Below are positions 1,797-32,421 of a stretch of 64,000 bases of DNA, in pieces. Every line of letters begins with the position of its first letter. Within the stretch, counting starts at the first letter, position 1. The translations under genes were made by a program, and so were the position numbers. Origin of the DNA: Thiomonas arsenitoxydans. GTDB lineage: Bacteria > Pseudomonadota > Gammaproteobacteria > Burkholderiales > Burkholderiaceae_C. The stretch spans positions 930,001-994,000 of the forward strand of contig NC_014145.1 in the NCBI RefSeq assembly GCF_000253115.1. Reading direction: 5' to 3'. The notes under the pieces are model-generated. The model ran no database searches and was not told the DNA's origin. It was given only the letters and a program-made list of their open reading frames with translations.

Positions 1797-3050
1797 ATGT
1801 CGAAACCCAACACCTCCGCAAAGACAGATGCCACAGCCGACTGTGCTCCCGTGTCATCGCCGCCGGTCACACGTCACACCACCGCCGACATCACTGCGGC
1901 AGATGGTGTCATCAACCCTGCGAGCACTCGTAACGGTGTCACTGTCGTGCCCTCCACGAGCGGCTCCGTAACACCCGCCACGGTTACCGGAGCCACCAAG
2001 CCCTCGTGCCGCATGCCGACCCGCGGCATCACGGCAAGGGCTTCCAGCCTGTGGCTGCGCGATGTGATTTATGAACGCTCACTCAAGTTAGTCGACCGAT
2101 TCCGGGTTATCAGGACTATCGACATCGCCGCCTGGTGCTTCCCGGAACGCCCCTTCAAGGCGGCCTTGACCGCCGCCCAGCGCGCCGTGCGCGGCATGGT
2201 CAAACAGGGGCTGTTACGCCGTTACAGGACCGACCGATTTCAGACCGTCTATGGACTGACCCAGCGCGGTGTCGATTGGCTCGGTGAACACGGTTACGCC
2301 GCAGCCTCCTCGGTGCGGCGGGTTAGCGACATGACCAATCCCGAGCACCGCCTCTGGGCCCAGTTTCTGGTCATCTGCGCCCGGGCGCGCGGCCTTCGGG
2401 CGCTGACCGAATCGGAGCTGTTGCAGGAACTGAACGCCGGAGCGAAAAAGCCCGTGCAGGGTTACATCACCGTCTCCGTCAGGCGGGGTAATGGCACCGT
2501 CCTCAAGAACCTGCGGCCCGACGCCGTGGCGTTTGAGAAAGCCGGGCTGGATGCCATCTGGTTTGAGGTGGACCGGAGCAAGCGCGGCTCCGAGCGCCAG
2601 GCCGACCTGGTCGCCCTGATTCATGCGCTTGGCCGCAAAACGGCGGACGGTAAAACCCTGCGCCAGGTCGTGGTGCAGTGCAAAACCGAGCGCATCGAGC
2701 GCGATGCCATTCGTCTCGTCGAACAACTCGCGGCAGCGAGCAATGGCCAGGTGCTCACCGAGGGTCGCAGCCACATCCGCCGCCGGGAGCATGGGGTCTA
2801 CGAAGTCTGGGCTGCGGTTCCCTATAAGTATCGCGATGGCCGTGTCAGCCTGACAGACGACTGCATCGGCCACATCATCGTGCAGATGCTGCCGACCTGG
2901 CTTCCCAAAGTCCGCATCGATGCGACCAATCGTTGGAGCACGGATGGGTGGTTCGAAGCCAATTTCTTGCCCTTCAAATTGCCCCCTGCGCGCGGTCGTT
3001 GGGAGTTGCCCGTATCGCCGTTTTTGCCCAGCGAGGAGGAGACCGAGTGA
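1797..3050 (+). CDS. Replication-relaxation-like protein (winged helix plus nuclease-like domain)
   Basis: The protein has 417 residues. The first ~80 are low-complexity and rich in Thr, Ser and Pro. Residues ~85-180 look like a winged-helix DNA-binding domain ending in a wing (RYRTDRFQTVYGLTQRGVDWL). The C-terminal part has alternating strands and charged positions (RPDAVAFEKAGLDAIWFEVD) that suggest a PD-(D/E)XK-like fold. The layout matches the replication-relaxation family found on plasmids and integrative elements, where a role in DNA replication or mobilisation is suspected. The ATG at 1797 has a weak ribosome binding site, and a palindrome sits just upstream. Assignment by fold pattern only. 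Confidence 0.6.
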   Translation: MSKPNTSAKTDATADCAPVSSPPVTRHTTADITAADGVINPASTRNGVTVVPSTSGSVTPATVTGATKPSCRMPTRGITARASSLWLRDVIYERSLKLVDRFRVIRTIDIAAWCFPERPFKAALTAAQRAVRGMVKQGLLRRYRTDRFQTVYGLTQRGVDWLGEHGYAAASSVRRVSDMTNPEHRLWAQFLVICARARGLRALTESELLQELNAGAKKPVQGYITVSVRRGNGTVLKNLRPDAVAFEKAGLDAIWFEVDRSKRGSERQADLVALIHALGRKTADGKTLRQVVVQCKTERIERDAIRLVEQLAAASNGQVLTEGRSHIRRREHGVYEVWAAVPYKYRDGRVSLTDDCIGHIIVQMLPTWLPKVRIDATNRWSTDGWFEANFLPFKLPPARGRWELPVSPFLPSEEETE

Positions 3051-3764: not shown

Positions 3765-4103
3765 ATGCAAGTTTTTGGAAACGTGGCCACGGATGCGGCA
3801 CGCAAGGAAAGCAAAACGAGCGGCAAGGCCTACTGGGAGTTCCGTCTCGCCGAAAGCCAGCGCGGTATCGACAAGGAGCCGACCTGGTACACCGTGCGGG
3901 TCATGAAAGATTCCAACCCGGGTCTCGTGAAGGGCGACTTCGTCAAGGTGACGGGCAAGTTGAAAACTGATTTTTATCTTTCCCGCGAGGGCAAGCCAAC
4001 CGGCACGCTGTTGATTCTCGCGTTTGAAGCCACGAAGCTTGCCCGGCGGGCAGCGGTCGAGGAGACAGCGGGCGCCGAGGGAGCCGGAGGTACTGACGAT
4101 TAG
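3765..4103 (+). CDS. SSB-like single-stranded DNA-binding protein
   Basis: The protein has 112 residues and an OB-fold pattern. It opens with VFGNVATDA, then a strand with KAYWEFRLAES, a W-Y-T-V-R-V strand, the turn KGDFVKVTGKLK typical of SSB proteins, and a final strand (LLILAFEATKL). The C-terminus ends in acidic and Gly residues (EGAGGTDD), loosely like an SSB tail but without the canonical phenylalanine end. It is shorter than chromosomal SSB, as is usual for element-encoded versions. It would protect single-stranded DNA during replication or transfer of the element. A strong terminator follows about 100 bases downstream. Confidence 0.75.
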   Translation: MQVFGNVATDAARKESKTSGKAYWEFRLAESQRGIDKEPTWYTVRVMKDSNPGLVKGDFVKVTGKLKTDFYLSREGKPTGTLLILAFEATKLARRAAVEETAGAEGAGGTDD

Positions 4104-4950: not shown

Positions 4951-5609
4951 GCAGCGGCTACGCGCTTGACGACGCGCGTGACACGACGCGGGAGCCCTGG
5001 ATTCGCCTCTGAGATGCGGCGCGGCCGGCCACGGCGAGGATGGACTTCGTTGTAGACCTTGGCGGACTGGATGTGCGCTTCGGTCAGGAACGGGTACGAC
5101 GCCTTCAGGCGACCCATGTCGATGCCAGCGGCCAGCGAGCCAAGCACGATGTCGACGGGCACCCGAGTGCCTGCGAACACCGCCGCTCCGTCCATGACTT
5201 CTTGGTCAGTGGTCACCAGCGCTTCCGCTTGGTCGACTTCCTTGGCACGGGCTAGCGCGCTCTGAATGTAGGGTTTGACGTCAACGACCAAGGTCTTGCG
5301 CTCGACCTTCCAGCTGACGGCGTCCAGCAGCATCCAGGTGAGGACGCGGTCCTTCACCGCCAGCTGTTCGACCCGCGCTGTGAGTTCCTCGAGCACCTGC
5401 CGACGAGCGCCCGCGAGGAGCAGGTCTTCGTTCGCGAAGTAGAACTTCGCGAAGGCAGCCGCCAAGAGGGTAAACCAGCGGCTGTTGCCTCGCTGTTCGA
5501 AGAGGGTCTCTGGCAACAAGCGTTCGTCCACAACCCGATTCATTTGCCGGTCCGTCAGGTCAGCGATGAACGCAGCTTCTGCGGTGGGGATGAAGAGTTG
5601 AGTGGACAT
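4947..5609 (-). CDS. DUF433 antitoxin-like DNA-binding protein
   Basis: The 220-residue protein ends with a DUF433 domain: VMDGAAVFAGTRVPVDIVLG, then GIDMGRLKASYPFLTEAHIQ, the usual G-T-R-x-P-V and Y-P-x-L-T signature. The N-terminal part (IPTAEAAFIADLTDRQMNRV) looks like a MerR-type helix-turn-helix, followed by a middle helical section. The start was set at ATG 5609, which has GGAGG 11 bases upstream; the frame is open further upstream but without a better start. It should bind the toxin and the promoter. An imperfect inverted repeat overlaps the likely -10 box just upstream. Confidence 0.7.
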   Translation of the reverse strand: MSTQLFIPTAEAAFIADLTDRQMNRVVDERLLPETLFEQRGNSRWFTLLAAAFAKFYFANEDLLLAGARRQVLEELTARVEQLAVKDRVLTWMLLDAVSWKVERKTLVVDVKPYIQSALARAKEVDQAEALVTTDQEVMDGAAVFAGTRVPVDIVLGSLAAGIDMGRLKASYPFLTEAHIQSAKVYNEVHPRRGRPRRISEANPGLPRRVTRVVKRVAAA

Positions 5610-5618
5610 GGTGACTAA

Positions 5619-5640
5619 TACCTCCGGACAGTCGGAAGTA
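5619..5640. promoter_or_regulatory. Putative operator over the toxin-antitoxin promoter
   Basis: TACCTCCG and CGGAAGTA form an inverted repeat with 7 of 8 positions matching and a 6-base spacer. On the minus strand its outer edge overlaps TATACT (5637-5642), a good -10 box for the DUF433 gene. Autoregulation by the antitoxin is the likely use. Confidence 0.45.
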
Positions 5641-5914
5641 TAGTTCAAAGGGCTCCGGCATGCACAGGACTGACGCAACACCTGCTTGTCTACCGGCGCA
5701 TCCATCCCGCCGCAACGGGAGAGGCAGTACAGGCTCAAGTTAATTGGATATGCGCAGGAGCTCCTCGGCAATGGCTAGCCGACCCCGGAGGCGTTTTATT
5801 TAAGGAAAGAGGTGGCTAGACGTGTCAGCTGGAGCCAAAACGAGGCTTCAGCCGGCACGAAGGTCGCGGTCGGTCGACAGGCGTGTCCCCTGAAGACCGG
5901 CCCGCGAGAAAAAA

Positions 5915-6121
5915 ATGAATCATTCGGAAAAACTGCTCACCCTGGAGGACCTGGCGGAAATGCTAGGCCGCAGTGCGCAGACCATCAAAAAAGACCTGCG
6001 CCGCAACCCGGATGCAGTGCCGCCGCGCCTCCAACTGCCCGGCACCCGGCTGCTGCGCTGGAGAGCAACAGATGTCCAAGCCTGGCTAGGCCAATTCGTC
6101 CGCGGAGCTCATCATGACTGA
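5915..6121 (+). CDS. Small helix-turn-helix protein (AlpA/excisionase-like)
   Basis: The 68-residue protein begins with LLTLEDLAEMLGRSAQTIKK, a clear MerR/AlpA-type helix-turn-helix, followed by a wing (PGTRLLRWRATDVQAWL) with the R-W-x-x-x-D-V-x-x-W-L ending typical of excisionase-like proteins. It overlaps the next gene by 8 bases and starts a three-gene operon with the replication proteins. Likely roles are control of the replication genes or of excision. The same three-gene order is known on plasmids and integrative elements. Confidence 0.75.
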   Translation: MNHSEKLLTLEDLAEMLGRSAQTIKKDLRRNPDAVPPRLQLPGTRLLRWRATDVQAWLGQFVRGAHHD

Positions 6122-7103
6122 GCGCTCCAAGACAGCGTCACGCGTGCCTGCATTCTCCGCACCGCTGGACATCCGCACCCTGCTCACCAGCGCACCGCCT
6201 CCGCTGGACCATGTCCTGCCGGGACTGCTCAGCGGCACGGTGGGCATGTTGGCCGGGCCTGGAGGCGTCGGCAAAACCATGCTCGAGCTCCAGCTTGCCG
6301 TAGCGCTGGCCACCGGGACGTCGGCCTGCGCCGGTTTGTTCTCCGGGCTGATGCCAGCGGCCGCGCCCGCCCGTGTGGTGCTGGTCACCGCTGAGGAATC
6401 CGCGGTGGTACTGCAGCACCGGCTGCATGCGATTGCCTGCGCGCTGTTTGAGCAGCGGGAACGCTTTGGTATCACCCGTGACTATGCAGAATTTGTCACG
6501 CAACTGGGGAGCAATCTGCACCTGTTCGCCGGTGCGTCACACCGTTACGCGCTGCTCGACCGCAACATGAAGCGCACCACAGTGTTGCAAGACCTGGCCA
6601 ACGCCAGCGAGGGAGCACGCCTGGTGCTCATCGACCCGCTGCGGCAGTTTCATGAGGGCGACGAGAACGATTCCGCGGCGATGAATCTGGTGGTGCAGAC
6701 CTTGCGTCGCCTGGCCGAGCGCACTGGTGCGGCGGTGGTGTTCGCCCATCACGCCACCAAGGCAGCCACGTTTGCCGGGCAGGGCGATGCCGCAGGGGCG
6801 GCGCGCGGTTCCTCCGCCCTGACCGATGGCGTGCGCTGGCAGCTCAATCTCAGCCGCATGAGCCGGGAACAGGCGCAACAGGCCAGCCTCGCGGAAGACG
6901 CTCGTGGGCAGTTCCTGCTGCTCGATGTCGCGAAATCGAACTACCTGCCGCCGCAACCGACGCAAACGCTGCAGCGCTTGGCAGGCGGGGTTCTGGCGCG
7001 AGTCGTGGCTGCCGATGGGCGCGACGGATTCCAGCTGAGTGCGGATAAGACGCGGCGAGCCCCAAGCCCGCGGCAACTCAAACTCCAGGGGAGTCGGCGA
7101 TGA
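6114..7103 (+). CDS. repA: RepA-like hexameric replicative helicase
   Basis: The 329-residue protein is a RecA-fold ATPase. The Walker A motif GPGGVGKT is at residues 48-55 and a Walker B strand VLIDPLRQF at 171-179, followed by VVFAHHATKA, as in the RepA helicase of IncQ plasmids such as RSF1010 and the AAA_25 group. RepA there unwinds the origin after RepC binding. The gene overlaps both neighbours (upstream HTH gene by 8 bases, downstream repC-like gene by ATGA), so it is part of a tightly coupled replication operon. It is slightly longer than RSF1010 RepA (about 280 residues). Confidence 0.8.
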   Translation: MTERSKTASRVPAFSAPLDIRTLLTSAPPPLDHVLPGLLSGTVGMLAGPGGVGKTMLELQLAVALATGTSACAGLFSGLMPAAAPARVVLVTAEESAVVLQHRLHAIACALFEQRERFGITRDYAEFVTQLGSNLHLFAGASHRYALLDRNMKRTTVLQDLANASEGARLVLIDPLRQFHEGDENDSAAMNLVVQTLRRLAERTGAAVVFAHHATKAATFAGQGDAAGAARGSSALTDGVRWQLNLSRMSREQAQQASLAEDARGQFLLLDVAKSNYLPPQPTQTLQRLAGGVLARVVAADGRDGFQLSADKTRRAPSPRQLKLQGSRR

Positions 7104-8203
7104 AGCAGACCAGCACGTCCCGCATCGTGCGGCTCGACCCGGCGACAGGGCTGAGCTGCTTGTTTCGACCCCTGCCCAAAAGCAAGGTGCGACCCACTCT
7201 GGATGTCGAGTACCGCCCGAAGCACGGCGGGTTGACCCTGCGTTTCAGCGCGCGAGAAGCGCTGGGCATGCCCGAGCAAACGCTGCTGCTGACCCTGCTC
7301 GAGCTCGCGCAGGAGCACTATGCCGTCGCAAGCCGCAGCGCCGTGGTCATCGACCGGTATACCCAGGGCATTGGGCAAGACCTGTGGCGCGCCCTGCATG
7401 AGAGTCAGATAGCGGCCGATGGCGAAACACTGTACATCCGCACTTCCTGGCGTGAGCTTGCCGGACGCTGTGGCAGCCAGGGCGGACGCAGTCAGCAGCT
7501 GCGTGAGGCGCAGTTGCGCCGACTTTGCGAGGTGGTGGTCTGGGAAAAAGCCGACGACGCTCAGCGTTCTTTCCGGCAGTCCCGGCTGGTCAGCGTCGTT
7601 CACGGCAGCGACCTGCGCCTTCACCTCGCGGTGAACTGCCGTTTGGCCGGGGCCGTGATGGGCAGTCTCTACGCGCAGGTCTCGCTGACCGAACGCCAGA
7701 TGCTGGCGACGGACACCGCCCAGGCGATGCATGCCTTTCTGTCGACCACCCTGCGGCCGGGGCGGTCGGTACCTATCGGCATCGACACCTTGATGCACCG
7801 CCTCTGGAGCGATGCCGCCGACGGCATCCCCGAGGGCACGCTGCGGGCGCGCAGAAAAGCGGTGCGTGACAGTCTGGAGGCCATAGGCGCTTTGCCGTCC
7901 TGGACCGTGGCTTGGCTGCGCCCCGGCATTGCGGAAATCCAGCGCAGCAAGGGCAGCGCCGAGGTCCGCGCGCGCCGAAGCCAATCGCCAGCGTCGGCGA
8001 TTCCCGACAAGGGAGGGTCAACGGCACTCGTTCCGGCGACTGCCGAGCACTTCGACGCGACCCGGTTCCTGGTGGGCGTTGCCGATAGTCCACGCGCAGG
8101 GACTATGGACAACGAACCCATGGACTATCGGCAACGGGGGGATGAGCAAAATCCAAGTAAAAACAATGAGATGGCGACTTTGGAGGCTGCTGTACTAATC
8201 TAA
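7100..8203 (+). CDS. repC: RepC-like replication initiator
   Basis: The 367-residue protein follows RepA with an ATGA overlap. It matches the layout of IncQ RepC: a strand LRFSAREALGMPEQTLLLTL near residue 55, a middle segment AVNCRLAGAVMGSLYAQVSL, and a second winged-helix part with GIDTLMHRLW and RARRKAVRDSLEAIGAL. IncQ RepC binds iterons at oriV. The last ~60 residues extend beyond the IncQ proteins, and the DNA encoding them contains three 16-bp repeats at an exact 22-bp period. That placement suggests the origin lies within or just after the gene. No primase gene of the IncQ RepB type is seen. Confidence 0.75.
   Translation: MKQTSTSRIVRLDPATGLSCLFRPLPKSKVRPTLDVEYRPKHGGLTLRFSAREALGMPEQTLLLTLLELAQEHYAVASRSAVVIDRYTQGIGQDLWRALHESQIAADGETLYIRTSWRELAGRCGSQGGRSQQLREAQLRRLCEVVVWEKADDAQRSFRQSRLVSVVHGSDLRLHLAVNCRLAGAVMGSLYAQVSLTERQMLATDTAQAMHAFLSTTLRPGRSVPIGIDTLMHRLWSDAADGIPEGTLRARRKAVRDSLEAIGALPSWTVAWLRPGIAEIQRSKGSAEVRARRSQSPASAIPDKGGSTALVPATAEHFDATRFLVGVADSPRAGTMDNEPMDYRQRGDEQNPSKNNEMATLEAAVLI
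8077..8136. repeat. Iteron-like repeats, candidate replication origin
   Basis: TGGACTATCGGCAACG occurs at 8121-8136, a 13/16 match at 8099-8114, and an exact reverse-complement copy at 8077-8092. All three start exactly 22 bp apart, the period of IncQ oriV iterons. A short A-rich stretch (about 8147-8170) follows. RepC binding is inferred. Confidence 0.6.
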
Positions 8204-8208
8204 ACAAG

Positions 8209-8304
8209 GCGAACCCCGGGGCGATGACCGCCCGGGGTCGCTAACCCCTTCCGCTTGCAGCACGGACAGGGGTTGGGGCATTCCGTCCGGGGCTCGCGCC
8301 CCGG
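8209..8304. other. Two strong hairpins downstream of the iteron-like repeats
   Basis: ACCCCGGG (8213-8220) pairs with CCCGGGGT (8231-8238), extended to GCG/CGC across one bulged base. CCGGGGC (8287-8293) pairs with GCCCCGG (8298-8304). Neither is followed by a T-tract, so they are poor terminators. In IncQ plasmids two hairpins (ssiA, ssiB) near the iterons serve as priming sites; these could be their equivalents, which is speculative. Confidence 0.4.
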
Positions 8305-8501
8305 TAAACCCTCCATGGAAACCCCTGGCATGCAAAGCCCATGGCCTCGCTCATGGTCATGGCGCCTTCGTCCTGCCCAACGCGGCCACGCGGGGACAGA
8401 GCTGCCGAGCATGGCCCCTCAGGGCCAACTGCCGGTTGCTACACAGGATTGAGGTGTGATTTGTGCCTCATCCCAACCAGGACAACTCAAGAAAGGCCAA
8501 G

Positions 8502-9107
8502 ATGTCGAAAGTCATTGAACTGAAAAAAAAGAGCGTCGCGAAAGAGCCCTCCTCTGAGGGCGCGCCCAGCGAATCTGAACAAAGCGTCGGGGTGTGGGCC
8601 GAGGAGGAGATTCCCAAGGGCGGCCCGTTGATGGCGATGCTGATGCAGTCTGCCCGGGAGCGTGCCCAGACCATGGCGGACCTCGCTGCAGAGCTGGATG
8701 TGACGTACGGCTACATCGTGCAGTTGCGCAACGGCACGCGCTCCAGCGCAAACATCAGCGACGCGTTCGCGACCAGGTGTGCGCGCTACCTGGGTCTCCC
8801 AAGGCTCACCGTGCTCATGCTTGCCGGACGCGTGACGAGCGCGGATTTCTTTGAAGAAAACGCGCTGAATTACCTGAGTCTCGCCCGGGCTTATGAGCAC
8901 ATCCGCAGCGACCCCTACTGGGGGCCCAGGGCGCCCGCGCTTTCGGAAGAAGAGGCGAGCCGCCACCCCGGGTTGCTCGCCTTGGCGGTTTGGCTCTATG
9001 AAGGGGTGACCGGAACCACTCTGCTGCCTGGGGTGTCCGACCCGCGGGAGTTGGCGAGAGCCATCGACGCGTTTCGTGGCCCGCAGAAGAAGCAGAAAAA
9101 GTTGTGA
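8502..9107 (+). CDS. XRE-family helix-turn-helix regulator
   Basis: The start was placed at ATG 8502, which has AAAGG five bases upstream; an earlier in-frame GTG at 8463 lacks a binding site. The 201-residue protein has a basic, Lys-rich beginning. Its helix-turn-helix is at residues ~60-95 (MADLAAELDVTYGYIVQLRN). A C-terminal half with VLMLAGRV and NYLSLARAYEH follows and is probably used for dimerisation. It follows the replication operon after a 300-base gap and is closed by a terminator at 9142. Control of replication or copy number is an inference from position. Confidence 0.65.
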   Translation: MSKVIELKKKSVAKEPSSEGAPSESEQSVGVWAEEEIPKGGPLMAMLMQSARERAQTMADLAAELDVTYGYIVQLRNGTRSSANISDAFATRCARYLGLPRLTVLMLAGRVTSADFFEENALNYLSLARAYEHIRSDPYWGPRAPALSEEEASRHPGLLALAVWLYEGVTGTTLLPGVSDPRELARAIDAFRGPQKKQKKL

Positions 9108-9220: not shown

Positions 9221-12200
9221 TCACCGAAACTCCCGCCCCCGCGTCGCCAACCCTCCCAGCAAGGGCGTCAAGTCCTCCAGGTACCCGGCGATGAGGCTGG
9301 CCGTGTCGCCCTCCCGCTGCCAAGTCCCGGCGACAGCCAACAGCCTGGACCGCAGCAACACCGTGCGCTGTCGCTGCCGCAGGCTCTTCCAGCAAATCAC
9401 CTGCACCGTCCCGGTCTCATCCTCCAGCGACACGAAGGTGGTGCCCTTGGCCGTTTCCGGTTGCTGTCGCAAGGTCACGATGCCGCAGGCGCGCACGATG
9501 CGGCCGTCTGGCGCCTGGGCGAGTTCCGCCGCCGTCTGCAGCCGTCGCTTGGCCAGCAGCGGTCGCAGTAACGCCAGCGGATGCCGCCGCAAGCTCAGGC
9601 CGGTCGTGGCGTAGTCAAACACAATGTCCTCGCCTTCCGGCGGCGCGGGAAGCTCCAGCCAATCCTCTTGGGGCGCCGCGTCATCCAGCAACGCCGGCAG
9701 GCGCTCCACCGCCGTGGCCTCCCACACCTGCTGCCGCCGATGCCCGGACAGCGACCGCAAGGCGTCCGCCGCGGCCAGCTGCCGCATCGCCGGGGTGTCC
9801 AGTTGCGCCCGCTTGGCCAGGTCCTCGGCATCGACCGGCGGGCTATGCAGGCGCGCGTTGGCAATACGCCAGCCGACTTCCCTCCCCAGCCCCTTGACCA
9901 AGCGCAAGCCGAGTCGCACGGTGGGGTAGGGCACCCCCTCCTCCAGCGTGCAGTCCCAGTCGCTGTGCAGCACATCGACCGGCCGCACCGTCACCCCATG
10001 GCGCTTGGCATCCTGTACCAATTGCGAGGGGGTGTAAAAACCCATCGGCTGACTGTTGAGCAGCGCCATCAGGAACTCCGCTGGATGATGCCGCTTTATC
10101 CAGGCACTGGCATAGACCAGCAAGGCAAAGGACGCCGCATGGCTCTCCGGGAAGCCATACTCCGAGAACCCCTGCACCTGCTCATAGATGCTTTGGGCGA
10201 AGTCAGGGGGGTAGCCCCGCTCGGCCATGCCCGAGATGAGCCGGTCGCGGTACTTCTCCAATGACCCGGTGCGGCGCCACGCCGCCATCGCCCGCCGCAG
10301 GCCGTCAGCCTCTCCGGCCGAGAAGCCCGCGGCCACCATGGCAATCTGCATCACCTGCTCCTGGAACACCGGCACACCCAGGGTGCGCTGCAAGACGCTC
10401 TCCAGGTCTTTGCTCGGATAGACCACCGTCTCCTTGCCCTGACGCCGGTTGAGATAGGGGTGCACCATCCCGCCCTGAATCGGCCCCGGCCGCACGATGG
10501 CGGTCTCGATGACCAGGTCGTAGAAGCAGCGCGGCTGCAACCGGGGCAGCATGCCCTGCTGTGCGCGGGACTCCACCTGGAACACCCCCACCGAGTCCGC
10601 TTGGCACAGCATGTCGTAGGTCTGCGGGTCTTCACGCGGAATGTCCTGCATCGCGAACACCTGTCCCCGGCTCTGCCCAATGGCGTCCAGCGCCTTGCGG
10701 ATGGCGGTGAGCATGCCCAGCGCCAGAATATCGACCTTGAGCAGCCCGGCGGCATCGAGGTCATCCTTGTCCCACTCGATGACCGTACGCTCGGGCATGG
10801 ACGCATTCTCGATGGGCACCAGCCGCGACAGTGGCCCCTCGGTGAGCACAAAGCCGCCGGTGTGCTGTGACAGATGCCGAGGGAAACCCAGCAACTGCCG
10901 CACCAGCGCCATCCATTGCTGGACTCCCAACGCTTCCGGGTCCAGGCCCACCTCCTCCAGTCGCTCCCGGGCCACCTCGCGGCCGTCCCACCACTGCACG
11001 TTCCGCGCCAGGCGTTCGACCGTCTCCAGGTCAAAGCCCAGTGCCTTGCCGACGTCGCGCAAGGCGCTCTTGGGACGGTAACGGATGACCGCAGCGGTCA
11101 GTGCCGCCCGGTCACGGCCGTACTTGGCATAGAGATACTGAATCACCTCCTCGCGCCGCTCGTGCTCGAAGTCCACATCGATGTCCGGGGGCTCATTGCG
11201 TTCTTTGCTGATGAAGCGCTCGAACAGCACCTGCTGCTGTTCCGGGTCCACCTCAGTGATGCCCAGGGCGTAACAGACCGCGCTGTTCGCCGCCGAACCA
11301 CGGCCCTGACAGAGGATGTGACGCGAGCGGGCGAAAGCGACGATGTCGTCCACCGTGAGGAAGTAATGCGCATAGCCCAGCTCGGCAATCAGGGCGAGCT
11401 CGTGTTCCAGCAAATCCTGCACCCTGGCGTGCAGGCCGTCGGGCCAGCGCCGCCCGGCCCCCTCATAGACCCGGCGACGCAGATAGCCGTCCGCCGTCTC
11501 CCCCGCAGGGATGACCTCCTTCGGGTACCGGTACCGCAGTTCATCGAGCGAGAAGCGACAGCGCGCCGCCACCCGCAAGGTCTCGGCTAGCAGCTCGGGC
11601 GGATAGCTCAGCGCCAGACGCAGTCGGCTGCGCAGATGGCGCTCGGCATTGGGTTGCAGCGCATGACCACACTCGGCAATGGGCAAACCCAGCCGAATGG
11701 CGGTGAGCGTGTCCTGCAAGGGCTTCCTCGAGCGGCGGTGCATGTGCACGTCGCCTGCGGCCACCAGCGGAATGGCCGTGGCCTCGGCCAGGTCCTGCAG
11801 CCGCTCCAGCCAGCGCTCATCATCCAGACGCCGGTGCAACTCCACCGCCAGCCATACCCGGCCCGTGAACCGGGCCAGCAGCCAGGCACCCAGCTCCAGC
11901 AGTTGCTCATCGGTAGCCTGCCGCGAAGGCACCGCTAGCACCACGCAATCGGCCAGCGCCTCACCGGTGATACTTTGCCTATCCAGCCGGTAGCTCCCTT
12001 TGGGCGAAGCCCGTCGCAGTCGGGTGATGAACTCACAGAGGTTGCCGTAACCGTTCAGATTGCAGGCCAGCACGACCAGGGTGAAGGGCGGTGTTCTTGT
12101 CTTCTCATCACCTTCCACCGCGAACTGCGCCCCGACCAGCAAGGGCAGGCCCGCCGCCTTGGCCGCCCCATGCGCCCGGACGATGCCGGCCAGGGAGCAT

Positions 12201-12334
12201 TCGTCGGTGACAGCCAGCCCTGCATAGTGCAGCTCTTGGGCACGCTCGACCAGCTCCTCCGGATGGCTGGCCCCGGTGAGGAAGGAGAAGTTGGAGCGGC
12301 AATGCAGCTCGACATAGTCAGGCAGGGGGTCCAT
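9221..12334 (-). CDS. dnaE2: Error-prone DNA polymerase DnaE2 (ImuC)
   Basis: The 1037-residue protein is a C-family polymerase of the DnaE2 type used for translesion synthesis in the SOS response. The N-terminal PHP domain begins YVELHCRSNFSFLTGASHPE. The catalytic acidic motif PDIDVDFEHERREEVIQYLY is near residue 380, the fingers segment RPGPIQGGMVHPYLNRRQGK near residue 625, and a C-terminal OB fold with VSLEDETGTVQVICW. It lacks the beta-clamp-rich tail of replicative DnaE. The start is ATG 12334, seven bases after the imuB stop. It works with ImuA and ImuB, encoded just upstream. Confidence 0.95.
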   Translation of the reverse strand: MDPLPDYVELHCRSNFSFLTGASHPEELVERAQELHYAGLAVTDECSLAGIVRAHGAAKAAGLPLLVGAQFAVEGDEKTRTPPFTLVVLACNLNGYGNLCEFITRLRRASPKGSYRLDRQSITGEALADCVVLAVPSRQATDEQLLELGAWLLARFTGRVWLAVELHRRLDDERWLERLQDLAEATAIPLVAAGDVHMHRRSRKPLQDTLTAIRLGLPIAECGHALQPNAERHLRSRLRLALSYPPELLAETLRVAARCRFSLDELRYRYPKEVIPAGETADGYLRRRVYEGAGRRWPDGLHARVQDLLEHELALIAELGYAHYFLTVDDIVAFARSRHILCQGRGSAANSAVCYALGITEVDPEQQQVLFERFISKERNEPPDIDVDFEHERREEVIQYLYAKYGRDRAALTAAVIRYRPKSALRDVGKALGFDLETVERLARNVQWWDGREVARERLEEVGLDPEALGVQQWMALVRQLLGFPRHLSQHTGGFVLTEGPLSRLVPIENASMPERTVIEWDKDDLDAAGLLKVDILALGMLTAIRKALDAIGQSRGQVFAMQDIPREDPQTYDMLCQADSVGVFQVESRAQQGMLPRLQPRCFYDLVIETAIVRPGPIQGGMVHPYLNRRQGKETVVYPSKDLESVLQRTLGVPVFQEQVMQIAMVAAGFSAGEADGLRRAMAAWRRTGSLEKYRDRLISGMAERGYPPDFAQSIYEQVQGFSEYGFPESHAASFALLVYASAWIKRHHPAEFLMALLNSQPMGFYTPSQLVQDAKRHGVTVRPVDVLHSDWDCTLEEGVPYPTVRLGLRLVKGLGREVGWRIANARLHSPPVDAEDLAKRAQLDTPAMRQLAAADALRSLSGHRRQQVWEATAVERLPALLDDAAPQEDWLELPAPPEGEDIVFDYATTGLSLRRHPLALLRPLLAKRRLQTAAELAQAPDGRIVRACGIVTLRQQPETAKGTTFVSLEDETGTVQVICWKSLRQRQRTVLLRSRLLAVAGTWQREGDTASLIAGYLEDLTPLLGGLATRGREFR

Positions 12335-12341
12335 GCCGGCC

Positions 12342-13682
12342 TCACGCGAACACGCCGTGCAGAAACCAGGCGGCGTCCTCGCCGGCCACCCGGGTCTGGA
12401 ACACCCAGAGTACGCCGGCATGCGCGCTGAGCGCCACCCAGTAGTCGCGCGCCACCTGGCGGCTTTCGGCGGTGCCGCCAGCCAGCTCCACCCGGTGCCA
12501 CCAGCCGCCTTCGAGCCGGTGGGGGCCGAGCAAGAGCTGCAACTCCCCCTGGTAGAGCGGCCGGTTGCCCCGCACCGCCAGGCGCAAAGGCTCCGGAAGC
12601 AGAAAGGTGGGTTGGGGCAGCCCCTCGCTGCGCACTGTGGCGCTCACCGGCCGGGCGCTCACTGGCCGGGCGCGCACCGGTGCAGACGCCGGCACCCACT
12701 GCTGGGCCCATTCCGGGCGGGCATCCTCCCGCAGAACGGGCCGGACCACCCGCTGGGCGCCCAGGCGGGCGGCAAGGCGTTCCAGCACCCGGTTCAGCGC
12801 GTCGCGGTCTTCCGCGGCATCGGGTAGCAGCGACGCCGTGGGCGGACGGTAATCGCAGACACTGTCCACTTCCAGTATCAGGGTCTCCACCGGCGCCGCC
12901 AGTTGCACCCGTGCCAGCTGCTCGGCCAGCAGCCGCGAGAGATGCGCCATGTCGCGCATCGGCTGGGCGGTGCGGATGACCAGCGCGTCGCCTTCCTCCC
13001 CCGGTTGGGGCCGCAGGCCGTCATGCTGCCAGCGCAGGGTGAAGGCGGTGACCCCGGCGTTACGCGCCACCAGCCAGCCCTGCAACTGCAGCAGCAGGCG
13101 CTTGGCGGCATAGACCAGCGCCATGGCGTTCTCCACCCGGGCCATCAGGTCCAGCCGGGCACAAAAGGTCTGCGGCAGGGTGACCCAGGAGAAGACGGGA
13201 CTGCGCAGCCCATAGGCTTGGTCCAGCGCTTCGACCATGGCGGGACCGAAGCGCCGGGTCAATCCGCCGCGGGGCAGGGCGCGCAGCTCACCCAGGGTGC
13301 GGCAGCCCAGTTGAGCCAGGGTGTCGGCGTGCGGCGCCGTGACGGTCAGGACGGTGAGCGGCAAGGCGTTCAGACGCTCGGCCAGTGGGCTGGTATCAAC
13401 TTCCTCCCTCTGGGCCCGTGCCAGCGCCAAAGCTCCTAGCGCCGTGGCAGCCCAGGCCACCGACACCACGCCCAGGGCCGGGCTGTCAACCCGCACTTGC
13501 GCGGCCAGTTCCCCCGCACCGCCGAACAGCCGCAGACTGGCCTGCACCTCCATCAGCACCGCCTCATCGAGCCGGGTGACCCGGGGCGTGAACTGCAGCG
13601 CCCAGAGGGCCAGACCATGCTGGGCGGCGGCCAAGGACTCAGTGCCGCAGGGGTTCGGCAGACACAGGGCGCACCACAGCAT
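12342..13682 (-). CDS. imuB: ImuB, Y-family polymerase-like clamp adaptor
   Basis: This protein is related to Y-family polymerases (DinP) and acts as a non-catalytic hub linking DnaE2 to the beta clamp. The start at ATG 13682 (MLWCALCLPN) has GGAG six bases upstream and overlaps the 3' end of imuA. The palm/fingers region contains RLDEAVLMEVQASLRLFGG, and a helix-hairpin-helix-like stretch (LAQLGCRTLGELRALPRGGL) is near residue 155. The usual catalytic acidic pairs of active Y-family enzymes are not evident. It is the middle gene of the imuA-imuB-dnaE2 operon. Confidence 0.9.
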   Translation of the reverse strand: MLWCALCLPNPCGTESLAAAQHGLALWALQFTPRVTRLDEAVLMEVQASLRLFGGAGELAAQVRVDSPALGVVSVAWAATALGALALARAQREEVDTSPLAERLNALPLTVLTVTAPHADTLAQLGCRTLGELRALPRGGLTRRFGPAMVEALDQAYGLRSPVFSWVTLPQTFCARLDLMARVENAMALVYAAKRLLLQLQGWLVARNAGVTAFTLRWQHDGLRPQPGEEGDALVIRTAQPMRDMAHLSRLLAEQLARVQLAAPVETLILEVDSVCDYRPPTASLLPDAAEDRDALNRVLERLAARLGAQRVVRPVLREDARPEWAQQWVPASAPVRARPVSARPVSATVRSEGLPQPTFLLPEPLRLAVRGNRPLYQGELQLLLGPHRLEGGWWHRVELAGGTAESRQVARDYWVALSAHAGVLWVFQTRVAGEDAAWFLHGVFA

Positions 13683-14406
13683 GGCGGGCTCCGGCGGGCA
13701 GGGCAATACAACGACTGGGCAGCCGGGTTCGCCGGCTCAGCACCGCCTCCAGCGAGGACGGCACCGACGGCAGGATGAGGGTCTGGTCGTGCAACGGGCC
13801 GCGACGTTTGAGCACCTGCACCCGCAGGGTCCAGTCCGGGCCGGCCTGGGCGAGCAGGCGCAAGCTGGCCGGGGACGATTCGCTGCGCGCGCCTTCAGGC
13901 CGCAAGGCAATGCACAGGGTGCGGCCGCCCTGCAGGCGGCTTTGCAGCCGCCGCAGTGGTTCCGCCCGGGCCTGCGGTAGCCAGGCGAGGACCGCACCGG
14001 CCGTGTCGGCCTGCACCAACTGCTCGGTGACCCACAGACGCTGTGCCGGGGTCTCGGTCTGCACCCAGATGAGCTGCCGGGCCTGCAAGCCCAGCGCCTG
14101 CAGCCCGGGCAGGAAAGGGGGCTTGGGCGGGCCGACGAGCACCACGTTGCCGCCATCCGCCGTCACCTGCCGCAGCGCCTGACCCAGCAGGCGCCATTCC
14201 AGCAGAGAAGGCTGTGGGCTGAGTACCTCGGTGAGACTGCCGCAGGGCCAGCCGCCGCCGGGCAACTCGGCGTCGAGCGCCGCCCAGCCGCTGGACACGA
14301 CCGCCCCCGTCGGGACGGCGAGGTCATCGCCGCGCCACACCGAGGCGGCCACGGCGGGCGGCAGGTCGGCAAGCCTTGAGGAGGACACAAGGGCAGGAGA
14401 GGGCAT
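13639..14406 (-). CDS. imuA: ImuA, RecA/SulA-like SOS mutagenesis protein
   Basis: The first gene of the mutagenesis cassette. It has a RecA-like beginning (TGAVVSSGWAALDAELPGGG) followed by GSLTEVLSP and a central strand NVVLVGPPKPPFLPGLQALG; in the family this protein is thought to modulate RecA. The Walker A loop is degenerate, as is common for ImuA. The start was set at ATG 14406; a TTG at 14448 is possible but leaves almost no leader after the LexA-like box at 14462-14477. The gene overlaps imuB by 44 bases. Confidence 0.85.
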   Translation of the reverse strand: MPSPALVSSSRLADLPPAVAASVWRGDDLAVPTGAVVSSGWAALDAELPGGGWPCGSLTEVLSPQPSLLEWRLLGQALRQVTADGGNVVLVGPPKPPFLPGLQALGLQARQLIWVQTETPAQRLWVTEQLVQADTAGAVLAWLPQARAEPLRRLQSRLQGGRTLCIALRPEGARSESSPASLRLLAQAGPDWTLRVQVLKRRGPLHDQTLILPSVPSSLEAVLSRRTRLPSRCIALPAGARHAVVRPVSAEPLRH

Positions 14407-14461
14407 GGCAGGCAGTCCGGGAAGGCGCTGGAGAGCGCGGGAAGGCAAGCCTACACAAAAA

Positions 14462-14477
14462 CTGGATAAAAAAACAG
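14462..14477. promoter_or_regulatory. LexA-like SOS box between imuA and the SRAP gene
   Basis: CTGGATAAAAAAACAG agrees with the CTG(TA)5CAG consensus at 12 of 16 positions and keeps the outer CTG and ACAG. It lies 55 bases upstream of imuA and 113 bases upstream of the divergent SRAP gene, so one LexA dimer could control both. Confidence 0.65.
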
Positions 14478-14590
14478 TCTTTCAATTCTCAGGGGAATGC
14501 GCGACCCTGTGTCTGCTGTCGCCTGTCTTCTGTCCCCGTCCCCTGTTCTCTATCCCTTCTCACCGACCCCAACCCGCCAACGGAGCTCCC

Positions 14591-15280
14591 ATGTGTGGCC
14601 GCTATGTCCTCAAAAGCTCCCCGCAGCGTTTGCGGGAGGTCTTCGGTATCGAAGGGCCGGATACGGCGCACAGCGAGGAATGGCGGCCACGCTACAACCT
14701 GGCGCCGATGCAAAAGGCGCCCATCGTTCGCCTGCTAGAGGGCCGGCGTCATCTGGATTTGCTGCAGTGGGGGCTTATTCCTTCCTGGGCGCAGGACCCG
14801 GCCCTGGGCAACCGGCTCATCAATGCGCGCAGTGAAACGGCGGCGGAGAAGCCTGCCTTCCGGGCGGCCTTCAGGAGCCGACGCTGCATTGTGCCGGCCG
14901 ATGGGTTTTACGAGTGGCAGCAGCAGCCTTCGGGGAAGCAACCGTTCTACATCCATCGCCCGGACGGGCAACAGCTGGCCATGGCCGGGCTGTGGGAGCA
15001 CTGGATGCCGCCCGGCGCCACCGAGCCCCTGCTGACCTTCACCATTCTGACCACCGAGGCGAACGACGTGATGCGGCCGTTGCATGACCGGATGCCGGTC
15101 GTGCTCCATGAGGAAGATGTTGCGCGATGGTTGGACCCGACAGCGAAGGCGGCTGACCTGCAGGCGCTGATGCGGCCGCTGGGCGACAGTGCGTTGGACG
15201 CCTATCCGGTTGGCAAGGCAGTCGGCAATGTGCGGAATGACGGTCCCGCGTTACTTGAATCAATCGATGGGACGCATTGA
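14591..15280 (+). CDS. yedK: SRAP/YedK family abasic-site processing protein
   Basis: The 229-residue protein belongs to the SRAP family (YedK, human HMCES), which forms a covalent bond between Cys2 and abasic sites in single-stranded DNA. All key positions are visible: MCGRY at the N-terminus (Cys2), the Asn in LINARSETAAEKPAF, the Glu in DGFYEW, and the His in HDRMPVVLHEED. The ATG at 14591 must be the start because Cys2 has to follow the removed Met. It is divergent from the imuA-imuB-dnaE2 operon across a LexA-like box, which places it in the same damage response. Confidence 0.93.
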   Translation: MCGRYVLKSSPQRLREVFGIEGPDTAHSEEWRPRYNLAPMQKAPIVRLLEGRRHLDLLQWGLIPSWAQDPALGNRLINARSETAAEKPAFRAAFRSRRCIVPADGFYEWQQQPSGKQPFYIHRPDGQQLAMAGLWEHWMPPGATEPLLTFTILTTEANDVMRPLHDRMPVVLHEEDVARWLDPTAKAADLQALMRPLGDSALDAYPVGKAVGNVRNDGPALLESIDGTH

Positions 15281-25682: not shown

Positions 25683-26501
25683 TCAAAGCGGTGTCTCGGG
25701 CTCAGCGGGCTGGGGTGCCTGTGCTGTGCCCGAACGCCTTTGCTCCCGCGCCTTGATGCGGGTCTTGGCGGTTTCCGTGCTGTGACGGAAGCGGTAGCTC
25801 TCGTTCCCGGTTTCCAGAATGTGGCAGTGGTGTGTGAGCCGGTCGAGCAAGGCGGTGGTCATCTTCGCATCGATGAACACGCTGGACCACTCGCCGAAGG
25901 CCAGATTGGTCGTGATCAGCACGCTGGTGTGCTCGTAGAGCTTGGACAGCAGATGGAACAACAAAGCCCCGCCCGCCTGACTGAAGGGCAGATACCCCAG
26001 CTCATCGAGAATGACCAAGTCCATACGCAAGAGGCTTGCCGCAATCCGCCCGGCTTTGCCCTGCGCCTTCTCCTGCTCCAGCGCGTTGACCAGATCGACG
26101 GTGGAGTAAAACCGCACCCGCTTGCCGTGCTGCGTGATGCCCGCCACGCCGATGGCCGTGCCCAGATGGCTCTTTCCCGTGCCGGGCCCGCCCACCAGCA
26201 CGACGTTGTGCGCGGCTTCGGTAAAGGCCATGCTGGCGAGTTGCCCCACCAGCGTGCGATCAACCCTTGAGGCATCAAAGTCAAACCCCGCTAGATCGCG
26301 GTGCACCGGGAAGCGGGCCGAGAGGATTTGATGGCGTACCGAGCGCACGGCGCGATCTTCCTGCTCGGCCTGCAGCAAATGCTCGACGAGCCACTGCGCG
26401 GCATCCAGCCTGGCGTTCGTCCCCAGACCTTGCAAATCGGCCCAGGCGCCGGCCATGCCGTGCAGCCGCAACGCCTTGAGTTCCGCAATGACCTCACGCA
26501 T
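25683..26501 (-). CDS. istB: IS21 helper ATPase IstB
   Basis: The 272-residue AAA+ ATPase has Walker [11 protein letters not shown] near residue 105 and Walker [13 protein letters not shown] near residue 165, the standard IstB pattern. It helps the transposase choose and bind target DNA. It overlaps istA by 8 bases (ATGCGTGA). The last ~30 residues are Pro/Ala-rich and differ from shorter IstB proteins. Confidence 0.95.
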
Positions 26502-28014
26502 GATCTCGCTCCTCGTCAGTCACCCGCAGGCGGTCATAGCGGGCCGTGTCGGCGCGGGGTGGATCGGCCATCGTCAAGGCCGTGGTCACTTGGGCGGGCT
26601 GGGGGCCGGTCTGCAAGCGCCCCATCACGTTGACCACATGCTCCACGCTGATGCGCCCGGACGGGGCCGTGGCTTCCAGCACCAGCGCAGCGGCCACCAG
26701 GACCGCCTCCAGCCCGGATGCGGGCACCAGCGCCAGCACCTGGGCCATGAGCCGGTCGCCCCCGTCTTGCCGCAGCAGCGCCTGGCGCAGTTGCTGCAAG
26801 GGCTGGGGCAGATCGGCAAACGGCGCGCCGTTGCGCAACGCCCCGGGTTTGCGTTGAATCAGCGGCACATAGTGCTGCCAGTCGTAGGTGGTCTGTCCCC
26901 GGTTGGCCAGCCGCGCATGGCGGGCCACACACACGCCGTCATGCACCACGACCACCTCGGTGGGATACACCCGGGTGCTCACCCGCCGCCCGGCGAGTTC
27001 ACAGGGCACGGAGTAACGATTGCCAGCCATGGCCACCAGACAGGTGCTGCTGACCTTGACCGTGTTGTCCACATAGCCGTCGAACGCTGTGGGCATGGGC
27101 ATGAGGTGCGGCTGCTCGTGCTCGAGCATCTCGGCCACGGTGAACTGGCTGAACTCGGGATGGAAGATCTCCTGCCACAAGCCACGGCAGCGCATGGCCA
27201 GCCAGGCATTGAGTTCGGCAAAGGAGCGCCAGGGCGTCGACAGGGCCTCAATCCACACACGTCGCCTGCTGTCCTGGACGTTCTTCTCCACCACCCCCTT
27301 CTCCCAACCGGAAGCGACGTTGCAGAAGTCGGGGTCGAACAGGTAGTGGCTGCACATCGCCGCAAAGCGCGCGTTGACGTCGCGCTTCTTGCGCGGGTGC
27401 ACTTTGTCGACGGCTGTCTTCATGTTGTCATAGATGCCGCGATGCGGCACTCCGCCGAAGGCGGCAAACGCCTGGGTATGGGCGTCAAACAGCATCTCGT
27501 GACCTTGGCTGGGATAGGCCCCCAGCCAGAAGGCACGGCTGGCGCACAGCTTGACGTGGGCAACCTGCACGCGGTACGGCACGCCGCCCACCACCATGCT
27601 CTCTTCACTCCAGTCGAACTGGAAGGCTTCGCCCAGCGCAAACGTCAAGGGCACGAAGGCGTGCACAGCGCTCGTGCCATCGGCCTGTCGCCAAGCGCGC
27701 AGTAAATCGGTGACGCGGCTGTAGGCGCCGTCATAGCCTTGTCGCTTCAACTCGGCATGCAATGCCCTGGCCGTGCGCCGCTGCGCTTTAGGACGCTGCG
27801 CATCAATGGCCACGGCCTGCCGGAGCCACTCCACATAGGGCGCGAGCTTGCGCGAGGGTTGTGTTCGCCGCGCCGCGTACCGCGGTACGACATCGCCCGG
27901 CTGGCGTAGCCAGGTACGCACCGTGTTGCGCGACAGCCCCGTACTGCGGGCAATCTCTCGAACGGATTTGTTCTGGCGGAAATGCATCCGCCGGATCTTG
28001 CCAATCATGTCCAT
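26494..28014 (-). CDS. istA: IS21 transposase IstA
   Basis: The 506-residue DDE transposase begins with a helix-turn-helix ([20 protein letters not shown], then [13 protein letters not shown]). The integrase core includes [14 protein letters not shown] for the first Asp and [17 protein letters not shown] for the second. The start was set at ATG 28014 because AGGAG lies eight bases upstream; a GTG at 28023 is weaker. It cuts and joins the IS ends together with IstB. Confidence 0.95.
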
Positions 28015-28072
28015 GGTGATCACTCCTGCTCCCCGTGCCTAAAAAAGCAGCAGGGTAGGTGGAACACCCGGG

Positions 28073-29860
28073 TCAATTTTGCGTCGGCATAACCTTCAAA
28101 AGTGGGTCAATTTTCGTTCGGCACGAACACTCCAAAACCTCTCGGGGCATATCCATCATCACCACGCGGTGGGTCATACCTCCGATGCGCTGGTGGCCGC
28201 TTTCGGCGCCTGGCAGTCGCGCAAGCACGTCCTTCCAGCCACCGAGCGCCCAGTCTGTTCCCATCATGAGCTGCCGCATCCCGTCATGCTGTTCAGAGCT
28301 GGCGATGGCCAGCTTCCAGCGTGCCGGGTCTTTCAACCACATCGGTCGCACTCCAAGTGCCTCCAGTTGCCGCGTGAGCGACTCCCGGTGGGCGGGGGAC
28401 CCATGAACAATCTGAGTTAGCGTCTCCTGAATGGTCAGGTACTTTTTCTCTTTCACGCCATGGGCCATATGGAACACGACCAACTTGCGCCCCAGCACTC
28501 GTCGCAGGCACCGGTCTGCGTCTCGTTCGACCTTGACCTCTTCCGGCTTCTCCAGATTCATCCGCGCGATAAGGCTGCGCAGCTCTTCTGGAGTCGGGAT
28601 TTGGTCTCGCGTCAGCGCGACATAGCCGGCCACGATGGGCGCGTACTTGTCCAGGAAACGCGGCTCATGGCCGAGTCCGAGGAGTAGCGCCCGCGCAGCA
28701 CTCAGCGTGTCACGCATCAAGGCCCAGCGCGCCACCAGGAGCCGGCGTAGCCGGGCCCCAAGCTGCACCGTCTCGATATGGCGCGACGGGTCGAGCAGCG
28801 GCTCATAGACGTGCCGTGAGGACTCCGGCAGCGCGGCCAGATTGAGCTGAACCACTCTCGTTTCCGTCGCACCATTGAACGATGGCAAGCTGATGCCCGC
28901 TATCGCTACACCGGTGGGCGTATTGAAATGCCGCAGTTTCCCGCCAGAGGCCCGGTAATGGCGTGGCGAGCCACTTTGGGTGAACTGACTGCGCACCAAC
29001 TCAAAGAGGCCGTCCACCGCCGTCTTCCTGCCGCCACGGGCTTCGACCTCATCGAGCAGCAGCGTCGCCGAGCTTTTCTCCATGGCGTGCAGAACTTGTG
29101 CCGCCGTAGGAATGCCATCGCGACGCGTCGCCTGCGGGCCGAGTAGATTCGACAAAAGCTCCATTAGCGTGGTCTTCCCCGAGCTCCTTTCTGCCGAGAG
29201 GGCCAGAACGGGGCGATGGGGGAGTGCCGAGCCGAAAAATGCGCTGACGAACCAGCCCAGGACCTTCATCGAATCGCCCTCGCTTTCGAAGCCGAAAGTC
29301 GAGAGCACTTGGACCACGCGCCGCACTTCTTCGTCGGACGCACAAGGCGTATCCAAGTCGAAGCCCAGTGAAGGACCGCCTTGGTAGACGACCTTTGGTT
29401 TTTTGCCGACCAGCGGCACGGGAGCCCCGTCTGTGCGCGTGAGTTGGTGGCCAAAGTTCATTACAAGCTCTTGGCCGTCACAGTACAGTCCCGGCCCCCG
29501 TACCTGATTCAGGTCGATAGGCCCGAGTGCGTCGCACGCTTGCGCGATAGCGTCCGCAGCCGAGCCTTCCTCTTCGACATAGGTCTTGAGGTCGTGGTCG
29601 TACACCATGCTCTGCTGACGCACATCCTGCCCAAACCAGACCTTCAGTTTGGCCAGATTCAAATCCCGCGCGCGCAGAATCACCAGCATGCCCGTTTTTT
29701 GGGAGTGGACGACGTAACTGCCATCCTCTGTGTGTCCGATAGGAACCCAGCCCCCCTCGGGTTTGACAAGCTGCGTGACTGACTCGGTTACCGCGACGCC
29801 CTGGGTCAGCTTTCCACCGTTGTTATTGTGGTCGGCTTGACCGAACTGATTTGACTTCAT
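28073..29860 (-). CDS. DUF927 helicase-like ATPase with IS-altered C-terminus
   Basis: The 595-residue frame encodes a DUF927-type protein, relatives of superfamily 3/D5-like helicases on plasmids and phages. A Walker A-like loop AERSSGKTTLMELL lies near residue 230 and a Walker B strand TLLLDEVEARGG near 275. The ATG at 29860 has AGAGGA eight bases upstream. Residues 1-577 are native; the last 18 are read from the end of the IS21 element, replacing the original 14-residue tail found at 25432-25476. The ATPase core is untouched, so activity may survive. A replication or DNA-processing role for the element is inferred. Confidence 0.8.
   Translation of the reverse strand: MKSNQFGQADHNNNGGKLTQGVAVTESVTQLVKPEGGWVPIGHTEDGSYVVHSQKTGMLVILRARDLNLAKLKVWFGQDVRQQSMVYDHDLKTYVEEEGSAADAIAQACDALGPIDLNQVRGPGLYCDGQELVMNFGHQLTRTDGAPVPLVGKKPKVVYQGGPSLGFDLDTPCASDEEVRRVVQVLSTFGFESEGDSMKVLGWFVSAFFGSALPHRPVLALSAERSSGKTTLMELLSNLLGPQATRRDGIPTAAQVLHAMEKSSATLLLDEVEARGGRKTAVDGLFELVRSQFTQSGSPRHYRASGGKLRHFNTPTGVAIAGISLPSFNGATETRVVQLNLAALPESSRHVYEPLLDPSRHIETVQLGARLRRLLVARWALMRDTLSAARALLLGLGHEPRFLDKYAPIVAGYVALTRDQIPTPEELRSLIARMNLEKPEEVKVERDADRCLRRVLGRKLVVFHMAHGVKEKKYLTIQETLTQIVHGSPAHRESLTRQLEALGVRPMWLKDPARWKLAIASSEQHDGMRQLMMGTDWALGGWKDVLARLPGAESGHQRIGGMTHRVVMMDMPREVLECSCRTKIDPLLKVMPTQN
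28130..28138. repeat. Right copy of the 9-bp IS21 target duplication
   Basis: CTCCAAAAC follows the IS end CGAACA and matches 25477-25485 exactly. Confidence 0.85.
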
Positions 29861-32223: not shown

Positions 32224-32245
32224 GCCGCGGCCCTCCTTGCTCACA

Positions 32246-32275: not shown

Positions 32276-32344
32276 TTTTGCGTGAGACTGGACTGAGTTG
32301 GCAAGCGATGTTTGATGTAAGTGCCTGTTATTAAACGGGAAGTT

Positions 32345-32421
32345 TGGTAGGCCGTGCTGGGCTCGAACCAGCGACCAAAGGATTATGAGTCCTCTGCTCT
32401 AACCAACTGAGCTAACGGCCC
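32345..32421 (-). tRNA. tRNA with CAT anticodon (Met or Ile2), CCA encoded
   Basis: The minus strand folds as a cloverleaf: acceptor GGGCCGT/ACGGCCT, D-arm GCTC...GAGC, anticodon stem GAGGA/TCCTT with loop CTCATAA, and T-arm GCTGG/CCAGC with loop TTCGAGC. The discriminator A and CCA are encoded at 32345-32348. The anticodon CAT fits elongator Met or the lysidine-modified Ile2 species; I cannot decide between them. The first acceptor pair is a G-T wobble. The 3' end faces the integrase, as for a tRNA attachment site. Confidence 0.9.

Follow-up and report, generated by a model that had tools for sequence, protein, structure and literature searches.

The window analysed here, a stretch of 64,000 nucleotides of the Thiomonas arsenitoxydans chromosome (G000:C2:930001-994000), contains an operon encoding a small HTH protein, an IncQ-type RepA and an IncQ-type RepC. 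Together with the repeat-bearing 3′ end of repC, we read this operon as the replication cassette by which a 44.1-kb element, integrative and probably mobilizable, would be copied in an iteron-dependent manner after excision; judging from sequence evidence, we put the probability of this reading at about three in four. Excision would come first; RepC would then bind three iterons within the tail of its own gene, open the adjacent A+T-rich stretch and load the RepA helicase. The excised circle would thereby be copied, and hence kept until reintegration or transfer, and the AlpA-like HTH protein, whose gene belongs to this set of overlapping genes, would link replication to excision.

The HTH-RepA-RepC operon and the element that carries it

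The three genes, all open and all on the plus strand, encode a 68-aa HTH protein (5915–6121), RepA (6114–7103) and RepC (7100–8203), with overlaps of 8 bases (HTH/RepA) and 4 bases (RepA/RepC), just as the tight operon had been described from the sequence alone. The HTH protein is excisionase/AlpA-like: it scores 25.3 bits against HTH_17, below the cut-off of 27, and matches phrog_66 (‘excisionase and transcriptional regulator’) with an E-value of 3.9e-6. RepA, an IncQ-type helicase, matches the solved plasmid RepA structure PDB 1g8y (REPA; E 1.8e-44, 155 bits), which we take to be RSF1010 RepA, and AAA_25 (3.3e-36). RepC, an IncQ-type initiator, matches the Pfam RepC family PF06504 (1e-23, 84 bits, cut-off 22.8), so that profile similarity to RepA and RepC holds for both proteins. 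Compared with the proteins of the IncQ plasmid pYR11, 105 of 281 RepA positions and 93 of 287 RepC positions (32%) are identical. The predicted RepC model matches the initiators RctB (E 3.2e-6) and RepE54 (E 4.3e-6) among 28 hits at E≤0.001, with TM-scores by query of 0.31 to 0.44, which suggests an initiator fold; most of residues 288–367 are predicted to be disordered, in segments within that range. Searching the PDB with either protein profile gave no convincing sequence relatives, and no RepC relatives were confirmed in viral contigs. As NCBI already names a Thiomonas relative (P0010) ‘replication protein C, IncQ-type’, the RepC gene label itself is not new.

The operon lies in an element spanning 44,117 bp. 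Its right boundary, attR, is a 56-bp perfect repeat (32339–32394) in the 3′ part of a tRNA-Met gene (32345–32421, minus strand), and its partner attL, perfect over 56 bp, is located to the left, outside the window (-11722 to -11667). A tyrosine integrase (30865–32244, minus strand; PF00589 2e-11; phrog_1 integrase 1.2e-41) is encoded beside attR. In related genomes the empty site, where the two flanks meet at one att copy, was found at 6 of the 10 loci examined (L180, L182, L184, L185, L186 and L187); these 10 are the 15 available less the two of the window's own genome, L188, L189 and L191. With integrase, att sites, tRNA-Met target and empty sites in place, the suspected integrative element is real, and in its integrase, att sites and empty site it agrees with an integrative mobilizable element.

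A simple gene caller gave 29 genes in the element, and 28 of them (all except -406 to 469) were scanned with Pfam. Among them are HipA-like, AbiEii toxin-family, DUF433 and DUF5615 genes, a type I restriction system, a gene resembling DNA polymerase III alpha, one IS21 copy and the integrase; none of these 28 of 29 called genes matched a type IV secretion family. The polymerase-like gene (9221–12421) lies beside RepC within a group at 9221–15277 that also encodes an SRAP-domain protein, and, of 12 other genomes of the genus, 2 had matches over 400 bp to a 3-kb probe covering the polymerase end. Two further genes near RepC, at 12342–14448, gave no Pfam match and a weak RecA match, respectively; presumably, they stand where ImuB and ImuA would be expected.

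The alternative that survives best is that the cassette is a decayed remnant, passed on as part of a fixed island, and has ceased to replicate. The IS21 copy within the element, a primase-like ORF covering only the C-terminal half of its family and the lack of a secretion apparatus among the 28 of 29 called genes scanned would fit such decay, but all three operon genes are open, the att sites are perfect over 56 bp and the closest relative, L010, keeps every position of the repeats described below. We therefore regard a remnant as unlikely.

Iteron-like repeats within the 3′ end of repC

At its 3′ end, repC holds three copies of a 16-bp repeat that start exactly 22 bp apart, at 8077, 8099 and 8121, the first of them inverted, as the sequence-only reading had it. 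Iteron 1 (8077–8092, minus strand) is the exact reverse complement of iteron 3 (16/16), and iteron 2 (8099–8114, plus strand) agrees with iteron 3 (8121–8136, plus strand) at 13/16 positions; the array thus consists of two direct copies and one inverted copy. The pattern GGACTATSGRCAACG, with ≤1 mismatch allowed, occurs 4 times in the 3.79-Mb genome as compared to 2 occurrences of the reversed control pattern. Three of the 4 matches of this 15-mer family form the repC array, which is unique in the genome, and the fourth is a lone copy at 2113. None of 300 synonymous-codon shuffles of repC produced three copies within 70 bp (two copies: 43/300), and none of 40 dinucleotide shuffles reached the clustering score of the array. 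Since 22 is not a multiple of 3, the three copies encode unrelated peptides (GVADSP, GTMDNE and MDYRQR); they sit in the predicted disordered tail of RepC.

Motif matches outside the array were also considered as iterons. The single near-copy at 2113–2127, inside the Replic_Relax gene, was rejected: it is kept in L010 and was not found in the eight other stretches scanned (L168–L173, L197 and L198). Likewise rejected was the motif as an iteron of viral contigs, 114 stretches of which matched, with one match in each.

The array is kept in relatives. L010, the one locus given by the scan of genome contigs, matches the window colinearly over 12.4 kb at 95.5% identity; the contig is filed as an Acidobacteriota MAG and is probably a mis-binned Thiomonas contig. 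It keeps each iteron at 16/16. The more distant L007 (15/16, 15/16 and 14/16 for iterons 1 to 3) and L155 (16/16, 13/16 and 14/16), with 64–68% RepC identity, keep the iterons while much of the RepC tail diverges: the stretch 7943–8060 retains only 58/118 positions in L007 and 53/118 in L155. A block just before iteron 1 (8044–8067) is as well conserved as the iterons, with 20/24 positions in both relatives, and its conservation may reflect protein constraint. L007 and L155 carry one further copy ~106 bp upstream, which is lacking in the window and L010.

The 22-bp period extends beyond these close relatives. We compared 23 rows: the window, 20 fetched repC loci, oriented, and the two IncQ plasmids pYR11 and pKAM330_7. 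L154, which gave no tblastn match, was dropped before the repeats were counted. Apart from L010, RepC rows came from 4/100 relatives, 5/399 of the order and 17/399 of the family, the own genome being counted in each. Among lags of 18 to 60, none gave a better self-match than lag 22 near the repC stop in 16 of the 23 rows, both plasmids included, which upholds the earlier claim that the repeats share the IncQ iteron period; the rows are not all independent, as L161/L152 and L163/L153 have identical RepC. Lag 22 was not the best in L157, L158, L159, L160, L164, L008 and L166 (7/23), with L008 and L164 showing lag 44, or 43 and 21. In pYR11 (IncQ1) the direct 22-bp copies begin at the stop codon of repC, and in pKAM330_7 (IncQ2) they extend across it.

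In the RepC tree, the window groups with L010, L007, L155, L156, L157, L158 and L159 (support 99/97), apart from the clade holding both IncQ plasmids (100/98); the deep forks are unsure because rows L166 and L167 are long. The inverted-direct-direct order is seen in 6 of the 8 rows of the window clade: with the same motif in the window, L010, L007 and L155, and with a different motif in L157, where a fourth copy is present, and, by eye, in L158. It is weak by eye in L156 and missing from L159. In the clustering test the L007 array was matched by 1/40 shuffles and L158 picked another motif, and nothing was found in L156 (20/40 shuffles as good) or L159 (32/40).

Iterons 1 and 2 also form an inverted repeat (8077–8091/8100–8114, 87% over 15 bp, gap 8). 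This shape is typical of dimer operators, and L157 has a similar inverted pair, so RepC or an HTH protein could bind here to regulate transcription near the operon end, with no origin involved. However, these copies lie where the operon ends and not at its promoter, the motif was not found at 5600–5930, where only other repeats occur, and IncQ plasmids have their repeats at the same place and with the same 22-bp period, which makes a purely regulatory role improbable. That the repeats, lying as they do in coding sequence, are constrained by the protein, or that they are a dispersed genomic repeat, is most improbable given the different frames and peptides, the 0/300 codon shuffles, the disordered tail and the absence of the array elsewhere in the genome.

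Downstream features and priming

The repeats are followed by an A+T-rich stretch (8143–8172, plus strand; 70% A+T in an element of 60% G+C), a candidate opening region; the sequence-only reading had likewise picked out an A-rich stretch here. Directly 3′ of the repC stop lies a conserved stem-loop (8209–8241, plus strand) with 11/11 pairs kept in 4/4 sequences; two pairs are changed on both sides, and 24/500 shuffles reached its covariation score, which is based on four sequences. This stem-loop may be a single-strand initiation site or, equally, a transcript end. Folding of the DNA at 8200–8310 (z -4.1) predicts three hairpins without a T-tract, at 8209–8241, 8243–8274 and 8287–8304; hairpins of this kind had been noted from the sequence alone, two in number rather than three. 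All three are kept in the near-identical L010 and only the first in L007 and L155. The further proposal of paired hairpin priming sites fares poorly, with just the first hairpin kept beyond the closest relative and with weak covariation. IncQ oriV regions are described as comprising direct iterons, an A+T-rich region, palindromes and a conserved 15-bp motif (PMC7557826). The 22-bp period and the A+T-rich stretch are present here, one iteron is inverted, and the 15-bp motif was not found in the element (best match 4 mismatches), nor in pYR11 (best 3).

As proposed earlier, the IncQ primase gene repB is absent: the RepB primase family PF16793 had no match in 7 genomes, nor in 14 control genomes (positive control pYR11, E 7.7e-34), and the whole RepB-bearing protein of pYR11 had no tblastn match in the element at E≤0.01. 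Host primase is therefore the likeliest source of primers. A 595-aa ORF (28073–29860), adjoining the IS21 copy (25683–28023), resembles the C-terminal half of the phage primase family phrog_35358. Its DUF927 label was rejected, as no Pfam family matched at E≤0.01, and the suggested DUF927-linked priming is not supported; 13 other stretches, mostly 20-kb slices, hold no homologue, and the ORF thus looks like no common part of the system. It is perhaps a second, broken replication module.

Known relatives and an apparently exchangeable slot

The two IncQ plasmids examined, pYR11 and pKAM330_7, share with the element homologous RepA and RepC in the same order and 22-bp iterons at the repC 3′ end. 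They differ in that RepB primase is usually fused to MobA in IncQ plasmids, whereas the element lacks RepB; in that the element is integrated in the chromosome, with RepC 32% identical to that of pYR11 and outside the clade of both plasmids; and in that repA of pYR11 is preceded by a 68-aa F gene with no similarity to the element’s HTH gene. An F-like repressor role for the HTH protein was rejected (no BLASTP alignment; 280/500 shuffles as good). The idea of an IncQ-like replicon hence stands for RepA, RepC and the 22-bp iteron-like repeats, but membership of the IncQ plasmid family fails because RepB is lacking.

GIsul2-type islands (int-alpA-repA-repC at guaA) are a parallel in being integrative and encoding an AlpA-like HTH, RepA and RepC in that order. 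The two such loci checked, L175 and L176, run GuaA, integrase, AlpA/HTH, RepA, RepC, and L161 and L163 have 22-bp iterons at the repC end. Their RepC lies within the IncQ plasmid clade, whereas that of the element belongs to a separate one; their iterons are all direct and at or across the stop codon, whereas here the first is inverted; and their integrase is close by and targets guaA, whereas here it is ~23 kb from RepC and the target is tRNA-Met, so the integrase-AlpA-RepA-RepC block at guaA is not found in the element. Two 20-kb slices of these islands had no match to the element’s Replic_Relax or SSB genes. The genomes that share identical RepC rows (L161/L152 and L163/L153) belong to different families of the order, a sign that islands of the GIsul2 type may have spread recently. 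RepA and RepC of GIsul2 have been listed as possible maintenance factors (PMC5704250), and GIsul2 provides the published precedent for a mobilizable island with RepA-RepC. SGI1, for which plasmid-like replication of the excised form is described (PMC7826253), resembles the element as proposed here, but its initiator is of the Rep_3 superfamily (PMC5704250), unlike RepA-RepC.

The element shares a core with six related loci (L168 to L173; five slices of 20 kb and one of 12.7 kb). All six have the 68-aa HTH protein, its gene preceding RepA, as well as RepC and a 214-aa HTH protein (8463–9107, plus strand; HTH_3 16.1 bits, below the cut-off of 23). A single-strand binding protein (3765–4103, plus strand; PF00436 26.3 bits, cut-off 26) and a replication-relaxation protein (1797–3050, plus strand) are each encoded in 5/6, and a 209-aa protein in 4/6; the relaxase-like gene missing from L170 may lie outside the slice, since one protein of this family is from a contig that has the same length (27,973). 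The replication-relaxation protein, a candidate MobC-type relaxase, scores 22.0 bits against Replic_Relax, below the cut-off of 25.3; its relatives are named ‘replication-relaxation family protein’, and its predicted model had no fold match at E≤0.001. Since PF13814 is listed as a MobC relaxase (PMC5357655), mobilization is plausible, with the match here below the Pfam cut-off. In L168 (6576–11317) and L169 (8652–13321), RepC is directly followed by a phosphoesterase resembling SbcD (Pfam Metallophos; NCBIfam SbcD below cut-off) and by a large gene whose ATPase matches are all weak; cargo seems variable at this spot.

Two islands of the window's own genome carry Replic_Relax, SSB and HTH genes and, after the HTH gene, at the place of RepA-RepC, a DUF5906 protein (54.7 bits, cut-off 27.6). 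DUF5906 proteins are helicase-like. Being 100% identical over the 5.2 kb compared, the two islands count as one observation. In L197 the protein followed by DUF5906 is a homologue of the 68-aa HTH protein (73%). We take this pattern to reflect an apparent exchange of replication cassettes.

What is new here is the RepC lineage, an iteron array within repC whose first copy is inverted, and the apparently exchangeable slot. No title or abstract found in the literature searched, which took in few subscription journals, describes an inverted-first iteron array in repC, nor did the term ‘inverted iteron’ turn up in any of 12 papers found on the subject. The paper on Thiomonas sp. 3As describes 19 genomic islands, and its main text does not contain the word RepC (PMC2829063). 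According to a 2017 review, no study had ever addressed how mobilizable elements replicate once excised (PMC5704250); plasmid-like replication of SGI1 has been reported since (PMC7826253). We give even odds to a wider view, in which a family of integrating elements would use a separate RepA-RepC lineage as an exchangeable replication cassette, the latter with its origin wholly within the repC coding tail, inverted-first iterons, no dedicated primase and a slot behind the AlpA-like HTH gene that alternatively holds the DUF5906 protein. The locus raises the question of how an IncQ-type origin is primed without RepB, and it offers a compact candidate origin served by a single initiator gene, natural relatives for comparison and an island in the same genome with a different gene in the slot.
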